DNA of 64,000 nucleotides from an uncultured Clostridia bacterium (lineage in GTDB: Bacteria > Bacillota > Clostridia > Oscillospirales > Ruminococcaceae): assembly GCA_944386475.1 (NCBI GenBank), contig CALXBH010000035.1, positions 1 to 64,000 of the forward strand. The letters are read 5' to 3'. Position 1 is the stretch's first letter. Every line of letters starts with the position of its first letter. Positions 3,536 through 57,785 of this stretch are shown in pieces. The notes under the pieces were generated by a model that was given only the letters and a program-made list of their open reading frames with translations, was not told where the DNA came from and searched no databases. The position numbers were made by a program, and so were the translations under genes.

Positions 3536-3660
3536 GGTGATCCTCCTAAACGGTGATGCCCGCCGGAATTGACCGGCAGCTCCCCGCAAGCTTTCTACTG
3601 GTATGGTAACACAGCCCGGTTAAAAAGGGAATAGCTTTTTTACAAAACACTCGTCTTAAA

Positions 3661-3840
3661 AGGCTTCTCCCCGGGGAGAAAAAGCGCGGTTTCGCGGCGT
3701 TTGGCCGCGAAATGCGGGCCATGCTTTCCGGCCCGTAAGCGGTTTTTTGGAAGGGTGGTGCTTGCAGCACCCTTTGCGCCGCAGGCGGTGGTGAGGGGGA
3801 ATAAATCTCTCCCCCAAAAAGAGAAACCTTTCTTTTAGCA
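3661..3840 (+). repeat. Type A structured element with type B fragments
   Basis: A GGCTTCTCCCC/GGGGAGAA hairpin leads into a type A core: outer strand AAAAAGCGC (3679-3687) with GCGGTTTTT (3739-3747), helix a TTTCGCGGC/GCCGCGAAA (3690-3698/3704-3712), helix b GCGGGCC (3714-3720) with GGCCCGT, then hairpin c AAGGGTGGTGC/GCAGCACCCTT (3751-3761/3764-3774). A GGTGGTGAGGGGG motif of type B follows. The segment fills most of the 395-bp gap before the next gene, and no gene is seen in it. Confidence 0.75.
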
Positions 3841-5530: not shown

Positions 5531-5572
5531 AACACACATGCCGCCCGTACCGTACGGGCGGCATGTGTGTTT
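5531..5572 (+). terminator. Intrinsic terminator
   Basis: CACACATGCCGCCCG pairs with CGGGCGGCATGTGTG around a short loop and is followed by TTT. It lies 17 bp after the lipoprotein stop codon. Confidence 0.85.
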
Positions 5573-5573
5573 A

Positions 5574-5990
5574 TAGGCTTCTCCACGGGGAGAAGCTGCC
5601 GCTGAAAGCGGCTGATGAGGGGAAAAAGCGCGGTGTCGCGGCGTTTAGCCGTCGAAATGCGGGCCGTACTTTCCGGCCCGTAAGCGGTTTTTTATATGGG
5701 TAGCGCTTTGTGGCACCCTTTGATGTCTACCTTTAGGTGACCGATGAGGGGTTACTAGCAAGCGCTGCGCTTACCTTTTTCCACCTCATCCGACGGTAAA
5801 GGGCGCAGTTTTGCTTCGCCCTTTACCGCCACCTTCTCCTACAAGGAGAAGGCATTTTGGCGTGCCTTATTCGCAGGCTTCTCTCAGTAGAAAAAAGCGA
5901 ACCGTGCTTTCCGGTATTCTTTGCTGTTACTGGGCCTCTCCCCGGGAAGAGGCTGCCGCTGAAAGCGGCTGGTGAGGGGAACAAAATATC
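5574..5990. repeat. Repeat island of type A and type B elements
   Basis: This 417-bp gap between the lipoprotein and the ABC ATPase holds no supported gene. It contains a type B unit (5575-5624, hairpins GCTTCTCC/GGGAGAAGC and GCCGC/GCGGC, then TGATGAGGGG), a degenerate type A core (5623-5721), an inverted type B unit (5783-5852) whose central hairpin is long (GGTAAAGGGCG with CGCCCTTTACC), and another type B unit (5935-5982). Confidence 0.75.
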
Positions 5991-10342: not shown

Positions 10343-10384
10343 AAGTAAAGGGAGAAAAACTATTAAGTTTTTCTCCCTTTACTT
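10343..10384 (+). terminator. Intrinsic terminator of purA
   Basis: A perfect 19-bp stem, AAGTAAAGGGAGAAAAACT (10343-10361) with its complement (10366-10384), has a 4-base loop. It starts 3 bp after the purA stop. Confidence 0.85.
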
Positions 10385-10390
10385 AAAAAA

Positions 10391-11070
10391 CACTTGCCGC
10401 CCATATATTGTGGGCGGCATTTTGCGTTTGCTTGCGGGCCAGAAAGTACGGCCCGCATTTCGCGGCTAAAAGCCGCGAAACCGCGGTTTTTCTCTATTGA
10501 AAGAGGCCATTTTGCCTTCCCCTCACAGGGGAAGGTGGCGGCGTAAAGCCGCCGGATGAGGTGAAAAAGGTGAGCATTGTTGTAAAACACCTCACCACCG
10601 CCTGCGGCGGAGCAAAGGGTGTTGCAAGCACCACCCTTCCAAAAAACCGCTTGCGGGCCGGAAAGTACGGCCCGCATTTCGCGGCTAAGCGCCGCGAAAC
10701 CGCGGTTTTTCTCTATTGAAAGAGGCCATTTTGCCTTCTCCTAGCAGGAGACGCTCTTGACAGAGCGCGGTGGCAGCGATAGCTGCCGGATGAGGTGGAA
10801 AAGGTAAACGCAGTTTATTCCCCTCATCAGCCGCCTTCAGCGGCAGCTTCTCCCCAGGGAGAAGCCTTTTAGCAGTCTGCCCCACAATCTGCCTTCTCCT
10901 TTTAGGAGACGCTTTTGGTAGAGCGCGGTGGCAAAGGGTGTTGCAAGCACCACCCTTCCAAAAAACCGCTTGCGGGCCATACTTTCTGGTCCGCATTTCG
11001 CGGCTAAGCGCCGCGAAACCGCGTTTTTTCTTTATTGGAACAGGCCATTTTGCCTTCTCCTTCCTTTTCC
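10391..11070. repeat. Large repeat island: three type A and several type B copies
   Basis: A gene-free stretch. Type A copies on the minus strand lie at 10396-10497 (its hairpin c is replaced by GCCGCCCA/TGGGCGGC, 10396-10403/10411-10418), 10615-10710 and 10934-11030. Type B units lie at 10516-10563, 10734-10800 and inverted at 10819-10870. A truncated type B unit at 10892-10932 runs straight into the third type A copy. The alternating order suggests serial insertion or recombination. Open frames here only reflect the repeats. Confidence 0.8.
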
Positions 11071-17400: not shown

Positions 17401-17630
17401 TTTAGGCCGCTCCTAACAGAAAAAAGCGCGGTTTCGCGGTGTTTAGCCGCGAAATGCGGGCCATACTTTCCGGCCTGCAAGCGGTTTTTATAAGGGTGCT
17501 GCAAATTGCAGCACCCTTTGCTTTGCCGTTAGGCGGTGGTGAGGTGATTGGCAGAAAATCTTTCTTTTTCCACCTCATCCGACCCGACTCAAGCCGGGCC
17601 ACCTTCTCCTAACAGGAGAAGGAAAAATGA
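17401..17630. repeat. Type A element followed by an inverted type B unit
   Basis: The type A copy at 17420-17519 is close to consensus: helix a TTTCGCGGT/GCCGCGAAA (17432-17440/17446-17454, one G-U pair), helix b GCGGGCC/GGCCTGC, outer arm GCGGTTTTT (17481-17489) and a perfect hairpin c AAGGGTGCTGC/GCAGCACCCTT (17492-17502/17508-17518). An inverted type B unit (17569-17623) has the central hairpin CCCGACT/AGCCGGG. It fills the 338-bp gap before the PadR gene. Confidence 0.8.
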
Positions 17631-17654
17631 CAGCAATATTTTTTGCAAGGTACC

Positions 17655-21574: not shown

Positions 21575-21770
21575 GAAAAGGCCTCTTCCAACAAGGGAAA
21601 ACCGCGCTTTCGCGGCTTTCGGGCGCGAAATGCGGGCCATACTTGCCGGCCTGCAAGCGGTTTTTCGGAAGGGTGCTGCAAATTGCAGCACCCTTTGCCG
21701 CCGCCTTTTTAGGGGGCCTTTTTGGCGGCGCAAAAAGGCCCCGCGTGCTGTCGCGGCGAAACACGACAAA
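21575..21770. repeat. Type A element joined to a type C relative
   Basis: The type A copy at 21598-21695 is near ideal: outer AAAACCGC/GCGGTTTT (21598-21605/21657-21664), helix a TTTCGCG/CGCGAAA, helix b GCGGGCC/GGCCTGC, hairpin c AAGGGTGCTGC/GCAGCACCCTT. Behind it, inverted, lies a type C-like hairpin, GGGGCCTTTTT/AAAAAGGCCCC (21713-21723/21732-21742), with matching changes on both arms relative to the copy at 124-153. Confidence 0.75.
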
Positions 21771-30918: not shown

Positions 30919-30954
30919 CCGCCCGTAAAATTCCTATACGAATTTTACGGGCGG
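30919..30954 (-). terminator. 15-bp inverted repeat, terminator-like
   Basis: CCGCCCGTAAAATTC (30919-30933) and its exact complement (30940-30954) enclose CTATAC. It probably ended the fakA transcript on the minus strand. The right arm is repeated at 31128-31142. Confidence 0.6.
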
Positions 30955-30986
30955 GGCTTTGTTGTTATCACAATTGTTTAGGGGCT

Positions 30987-31082
30987 AAAAACACGGTTTT
31001 TGCGCGTTTGCGCGCAAAATGCGGCCTTTTGTGTACAGGCTGCAAGTGTTTTTATAAGGAAATGTTGCAAACATTTCCTTTG
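30987..31082 (+). repeat. Divergent type A structured element
   Basis: This has the same architecture as the other type A copies with different stem sequences. Outer AAAAACAC/GTGTTTTT is at 30987-30994/31046-31053. Helix a is TTTTGCGCG/CGCGCAAAA, helix b GCGGCC/GGCTGC with one G-U, and hairpin c AAGGAAATGT/ACATTTCCTT. It is flanked by 15-bp direct repeats (30940-30954 and 31128-31142), suggesting insertion or recombination. Confidence 0.75.
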
Positions 31083-31155
31083 TACATGCCGCCGGTTTTG
31101 ATATTTTAGGTCTATAAAATCTTATCAGAATTTTACGGGCGGTATAAATTAAAGG

Positions 31156-57567: not shown

Positions 57568-57785
57568 AATGAAACGCAAAGCGTTTCATTCATTGGAAAT
57601 TTGCTTGTAGCACTGATGTGCTACAGTTGCTTCGCAACACCGCAAATTTCACTCTGCAACAAGCAATAGAAAAGAGACGCAAAGCGTTTCTTCATTGAAA
57701 ATTTGCGGCTTATTATCCGCGGTTTTATACCGCGTGGATCGAGAGCGTTAGGCTCTCAGGTGATGTATGAGGGGCGCCACCCCTC
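57567..57785 (+). repeat. Array of seven hairpins inside the S10 operon
   Basis: The 247-bp rplW-rplB gap holds, in order: GAATGAAACGC/GCGTTTCATTC (57567-57577/57581-57591); an outer stem GAAATTTGC/GCAAATTTC (57596-57604/57642-57650) enclosing TGTAGCAC/GTGCTACA and GTTGC/GCAAC; AAGAGACGC/GCGTTTCTT (57672-57680/57684-57692); GCGG/CCGC; CGCGG/CCGCG (57718-57722/57730-57734); GAGAGC/GCTCTC (57741-57746/57752-57757); GAGGGG/CCCCTC (57769-57774/57780-57785). The first hairpin and start of the second recur at 57674-57706. Confidence 0.85.

Follow-up and report, generated by a model that had tools for sequence, protein, structure and literature searches.

An intergenic repeat with a conserved three-way-junction fold, probably a dispersed insertional element, in Ruminococcaceae-type Clostridia

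We show here that an intergenic element of an uncultured Clostridia bacterium conserves one fold with a fixed asymmetric junction and changes most of its distal stem letters on both arms. Its copies are insertions between genes that grow into tandem arrays and fall into lineage-specific families. The element is probably a dispersed insertional repeat. That it is, moreover, a fold-conserved, structure-recognised, non-autonomous small mobile repeat with a putative mobiliser, not previously described, is a reading that we believe and doubt in about equal measure. The window, i.e. the whole stretch of 64,000 nucleotides that was analysed, is part of contig 35 of a 2.32-Mb draft genome. A first-pass annotation of this DNA had offered a structured RNA, a foldback mobile element or a DNA cruciform site. 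The evidence favours a mobile DNA element, because orthologous sites are empty, hairpin arms are duplicated, units form arrays, the distribution is patchy, gene context is not constant and there is little wobble asymmetry.

The copy at 31 kb spans 96 nt (30987-31082), in which outer stem, hairpin a, hairpin b, an unpaired A, the closing arm and hairpin c follow each other in this order. Its parts are:

30987-30994/31046-31053, plus strand: outer stem (fold)
30995-30997, plus strand: unpaired GGT (fold)
30998-31006/31011-31019, plus strand: hairpin a, spanning 30998-31019 (fold)
31020-31027/31037-31044, plus strand: hairpin b, spanning 31020-31044 (fold)
31045, plus strand: unpaired A (fold)
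30987-31053, plus strand: core three-way junction of outer stem, a and b (fold, z-scores, covariance model)
31056-31066/31070-31080, plus strand: hairpin c, AAGGAAATGTT tgc AACATTTCCTT, directly 3' of the core (fold)

Folded as RNA, the plus strand gives -40.0 kcal/mol (z -5.5 against dinucleotide shuffles). As DNA it gives -31.9 kcal/mol (z -6.8; opposite strand z -6.7), and 0 of 200 shuffles reach the fold energy of this copy. The fold that had been proposed here, with outer stem, a, b, closing arm and c, is present as drawn, its z-scores far below those of shuffles. Covariance model R1, which consists of 20 sequences from the own genome, scores the 31-kb core with E 1.5e-15 in a search of that genome; E-values are rough and all genomes searched are drafts.

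Seven sister copies had been listed on the first pass. Six are as described; the one placed at 10396-10497 is not a regular copy but joins halves of two subtypes into a chimera. The list of eight was also incomplete, since a ninth copy lies on the minus strand at 57568-57650, where it matches model R2 (22 divergent sequences, other genera included) with E 3e-5. The copies besides that at 31 kb are:

3679-3777, plus strand: type-I copy between divergent genes (blastn, covariance model)
5623-5722, plus strand: type-I copy (blastn, covariance model)
10360-10491, minus strand: chimera of a type-I 5' half (10430-10491) and a 3' half with hairpin c of another subtype (10360-10429) (blastn, covariance model)
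10612-10710, minus strand: type-I copy (blastn, covariance model)
10931-11029, minus strand: type-I copy (blastn, covariance model)
17421-17521, plus strand: type-I copy (blastn, covariance model)
21598-21698, plus strand: type-I copy (blastn, covariance model)
57568-57650, minus strand: ninth copy, in the rplW-rplB gap of the S10 operon (R2 match, sequence, sister-species comparison)
57596-57650, minus strand: core of the ninth copy, with outer stem GAAATTTGC/GCAAATTTC (sequence)
57568-57590, minus strand: hairpin c of the ninth copy (sequence)
about 57660-57735: second, partial unit beside the ninth copy

In the own draft genome, blastn and R1 detect about 30 copies with strong scores (E about 1e-10 or lower), scattered over many separate contigs, and simpler single hairpins besides. 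These copies form at least three sequence families. Type I comprises most window copies; in type II the outer stem is AAAAATCGC/GCGATTTTT and each arm of hairpin c measures about 16 bp; type III, with the outer stem AAAAACAC/GTGTTTTT, includes the 31-kb copy. A base-pair descriptor search that allowed G-T pairs and mismatches did not separate the copies from shuffles. This search was too permissive; support for the copies rests on homology, covariance models and comparisons. Most type-I copies are enclosed by a second palindromic repeat (3658-3800, 5568-5984, 10508-10930, 17500-17640), which consists of a hairpin GGCTTCTCC..GGGGAGAAG, a variable hairpin and then ATGAGGTG or ATGAGGGG, and is often mirrored. 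It resembles a MITE in its own right and may serve the type-I element as a host site. A pair of 131-nt repeats with 97% identity is found at 98-228 and 1126-1256, each with the palindrome GGAGCCTTTTTGyACCGCCAAAAAGGCTCC, and an arm related to this palindrome adjoins the 21.6-kb copy.

Covariation supports the fold in the own genome and beyond. Among 20 own-genome copies (alignment A3), 93.6% of the cells pair, compared with at most 48% when the 3' partner column is slid. For 22 divergent sequences (alignment A5) the value is 95.8% (slid versions at most 53%), and both sides change in 23 of 26 pairs, in 128 cells in total versus at most 24 in slid versions. The R2 set is slightly contaminated, because one of its 22 rows (L085, minus strand) duplicates sequence on the reverse strand. 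It had been argued earlier that paired changes on both arms imply maintenance of the fold; the pairing frequencies and the 23 of 26 pairs bear this out, and the case becomes stronger with the relatives. Stem arms are nearly unrelated between genera and the architecture is the same. Over 65 copies the invariant letters sit at the junction, namely an unpaired GG after the outer arm (58 and 49 copies), a TTT/AAA foot of hairpin a (60-64), a T/A foot of hairpin b (60 and 62) and the unpaired A (65/65), a constancy that is partly detection bias because R2 was seeded by R1 and the models were trained on the junction.

Selection acting on RNA predicts that G-T is favoured over A-C among single changes on the transcribed strand. 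Of 1618 pair cells, 94% are Watson-Crick and 2% wobble, and the helix deviations count 34 G-T versus 24 A-C cells, or 22 versus 14 distinct column events, in a test of limited power. As G-T and A-C deviations are similar in number, with a weak asymmetry at best, selection on an RNA strand finds little support and the pattern fits upkeep at the DNA level. The element could still be a structured RNA, its copies being transcribed and the three-way junction selected as a regulatory or decoy RNA or as an intermediate of retro-type mobility. Strong covariation, the fixed asymmetric unpaired junction letters and the good RNA fold energy would all suit such an RNA, and target-primed insertion in its retro-type form would give duplications of variable length, like the 15 bp at the 31-kb site. 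The small strand asymmetry and the rare wobble pairs tell against it, no Rfam match was found, and orientation and gene context are not constant; we therefore regard it as unlikely. Copies point either way, occupy convergent, tandem and divergent gaps, including divergent promoters, and carry no gene. An all-against-all BLAST of 179 flanking ORFs found no recurrent neighbour gene of note. Both orientations, all gap types and the lack of a recurring neighbour family speak against a cis-regulatory RNA.

The first-pass annotation had proposed a covariance-model search of related Clostridia, and such a search recovers the same architecture: R2 matches at E 1e-6 or better were found in 14 of the 397 genomes examined from the same family, which represent 10 of its 126 genera, several carrier genomes having 8-12 or more copies each. 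Among 391 genomes sampled across the Clostridia class, R2 matched only in the own genome and in one member of the same family. Carriers are Oscillospiraceae/Ruminococcaceae-type genomes, including G186 (100% complete), which is taken as the cultured Massiliimalia timonensis. Genomes G193 and G153 hold near-identical copies. In G193, copies (L175, L184, L191 and on contig 59) sit no more than about 270 bp from the end of a contig. The repeats thus appear to break assemblies, and copy numbers are lower bounds. In G289 (L170, L180, L187, L200, L201) the core stands inside a 350-405-bp repeat with long conserved flanks. The patchy distribution together with lineage-specific stem sequences argues for mobile or rapidly turning-over DNA and against a housekeeping element.

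Between about 4 and 35 kb the window is collinear with a sister species (G001), apart from some rearranged gaps, and comparison of the two reveals an empty site for the 31-kb copy in the recG-fakA gap of G001:

30919-30954, unstranded: older terminator-type hairpin CCGCCCGTAAAATTC-ctatac-GAATTTTACGGGCGG (comparison with the recG-fakA gap of G001)
30955-31127, unstranded: 173-bp inserted segment bearing the element, absent from G001 (empty site in G001)
31128-31142, unstranded: 15-bp direct repeat GAATTTTACGGGCGG, a copy of the second hairpin arm at 30940-30954 (sequence, repeat scan)

In the window, terminator hairpin, 173-bp insertion and 15-bp arm copy thus follow each other, and in G001 the corresponding terminator-type hairpin stands alone, without the insertion. 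More distant relatives that keep recG beside the gap have mostly short gaps of up to about 210 nt, and a few have longer ones. A further empty site is that of the copy at L005, where the gap measures about 193 nt in the own genome versus 38 nt or less in G001, and the copies at L006, L009 and L013 are missing from G001 too. Direct repeats of at least 12 nt flank 26 of 65 copies, with 0.85 expected in the control. At the 31-kb site the 15-bp repeat coincides with the whole hairpin arm, a copy that replication slippage could also yield, and the other copies share no fixed duplication length. Terminal boundaries are clear in some families only.

The copies might instead be bidirectional terminators of transcription or stabilisers of 3' ends that have spread as genomic furniture. 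This idea is prompted by the A-run/T-run outer stems in the window and by the stop codons that precede many copies. We hold it to be very unlikely, as several copies lie between divergent genes, the outer stems in G193, G323 and G086 are without T-runs, and the recG-fakA terminator hairpin is also present in the sister species, the element having been added beside it.

The rplW-rplB gap is short in most relatives that could be compared. At the place of the 57.6-kb copy, G001 has an element-like remnant that shares with the window neither a and b nor the 3' arm of the outer stem nor c; the two agree in the TTTCCAATG/TTTTTCCAATG linker and in the gene ends. The case for a shared ancestry rests on linker and site, as the sequence is not alignable. 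If both derive from the same insertion, all stems would have been replaced on both arms since the split; otherwise the insertions would be independent.

Tandem arrays in G086, G012 and on contig 36 of the own genome follow the scheme R-[spacer, core]-R-R'. Here R stands for the first arm of hairpin c, whose second arm occurs only after the last unit. The 31-kb site fits this scheme as well, provided that its terminator hairpin is read as R-R'. A rule that upstream array units always carry only half of hairpin c is weakened by the upstream unit at 57.6 kb, in which c is nearly complete. Arrays with duplicated hairpin arms and half hairpins may also be expected when template switching of the replication machinery at hairpins creates, copies and re-perfects palindromes, with no dedicated factor recognising them. 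Such a by-product of replication would likewise account for near-perfect Watson-Crick arms (the 94% above), for arms changed in blocks on both sides and for the chimeric copy at 10360-10491. It leaves unexplained, however, that ten genera with unrelated stems have one three-way topology and the same junction letters in common, and that copies were dispersed to many separated contigs; it seems improbable to us.

For the mobile repeat that we prefer, a mechanism can be outlined. The folded single strand, i.e. the three-way junction plus hairpin c, would be exposed during replication or transfer and recognised by a putative recombinase or replication factor. Insertion would target hairpins that are already there, or the DNA beside them, and would duplicate one of their arms, giving the layout R-[spacer, core]-R-R'. 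Provided that the fold survives, stems could drift or be exchanged freely, and this might be why the families look unrelated in sequence. In its strongest form, which we put forward tentatively and rather doubt, this would be a class of mobile DNA whose heritable, recognised feature is a single-stranded three-way-junction fold with a fixed junction, inserted by a putative recombinase beside hairpins with copying of one arm, and whose stems would be replaced almost entirely from one sister species to the next. Small bacterial repeats known so far have been discovered and named from their sequence. In the present case the families have hardly any stem letters in common and are connected by a conserved fold, and a search by sequence would overlook most of them. 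Should the fold be what is recognised, the element would provide a natural test case for insertion guided by structure, and might lead to a new recombinase.

The cultured carrier Massiliimalia timonensis makes the element testable. In its genome the element is located within a noncoding block of about 540 bp that is common to three loci (L204, L205, L206) and contains several strong hairpins. Each block ends beside tRNA-like sequence, with a tRNA-Leu or tRNA-Ser gene in two of the three (ARAGORN), and at one locus the element adjoins an actin-like partition gene (ALP/ParM type), a C5 methylase and an amidoligase gene. Judged by this arrangement, the block probably forms the end that a family of integrative elements has conserved, and such elements may be the vehicle of the repeat. 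Phage and plasmid collections gave no DNA match to the window element or the Massiliimalia block.

At the gathering threshold, Rfam release 15 recognises in the window only the S10-Clostridia ribosomal protein leader (RF03136; 55338-55430, upstream of the S10 operon) and nothing on the element. At a permissive threshold, eight element loci gave, besides tRNA genes, only sub-threshold matches of the chance type. An ATGAGG-type repeat at L006 (1685-1929) resembles Rfam whalefall-1 (best E 0.008, 25.5 bits versus a cut-off of 37), probably a chance similarity of hairpins. A literature search, which covered subscription papers in part, found work on REP, REPIN and MITE sequences and no account of this element. 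The earlier statement that it belongs to no named RNA family holds, and Rfam release 15 and the literature search yielded no match to an Rfam family or a described repeat.

Several known systems invite comparison. In integron attC sites the folded strand, and not the sequence, is recognised. The same kind of recognition is proposed here for the element, which differs in being a three-way junction without cassette genes. With MITEs and RUP, BOX or Correia-type repeats it shares a non-autonomous, intergenic, foldback character and an empty site with a flanking direct repeat. In contrast to these, it keeps a fold and not a terminal sequence, and its duplicated flank is a hairpin arm. A parent insertion sequence or shared terminal inverted repeat was not found among the flanking genes in the draft genomes, though a parent may lie elsewhere in them. 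In its dispersed, palindromic, mosaic and lineage-specific character the element behaves like MITEs as well as like REP/BIME sequences.

A further likeness is to REP/BIME sequences, which are short, extragenic, palindromic and present in many copies, whose imperfect hairpins are recognised as single-stranded DNA, and whose families have species-specific sequence and a common structure (PMC6006769, PMC2817692). Our element is likewise short, extragenic, palindromic and multicopy, occurs in both orientations and builds mosaic composites and arrays. However, a REP is one imperfect hairpin of 20-40 nt, and the unit found here comprises hairpin c and, before it, a three-way junction of about 70 nt. 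The definition of REPs includes a GTAG/GTGG or CGTC tetranucleotide at the hairpin foot (PMC3733652, PMC6006769); in the upstream flanks of the 65 copies, GTAG/GTGG occurs in 3 and CGTC in 0. REPs also go with a Y1 (HUH) transposase of the TnpA_REP (RAYT) kind, whose gene the repeats flank. The own genome has two IS200-type Y1 genes, with no match to the element models at their loci, and no Y1_Tnp gene was found in G001, G012, G153, G289, G186, G086, G193, G323 or G181. Mobilisation by Y1/RAYT is thus not supported, and a mobiliser of this transposase kind is unlikely; the analysis found no mobiliser. Identity with REPs was rejected on the absent tetranucleotide tag, the three-way-junction unit and the lack of Y1_Tnp in most carriers tested. 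Our best reading is that the element works like REP/BIME but is not REP/BIME.
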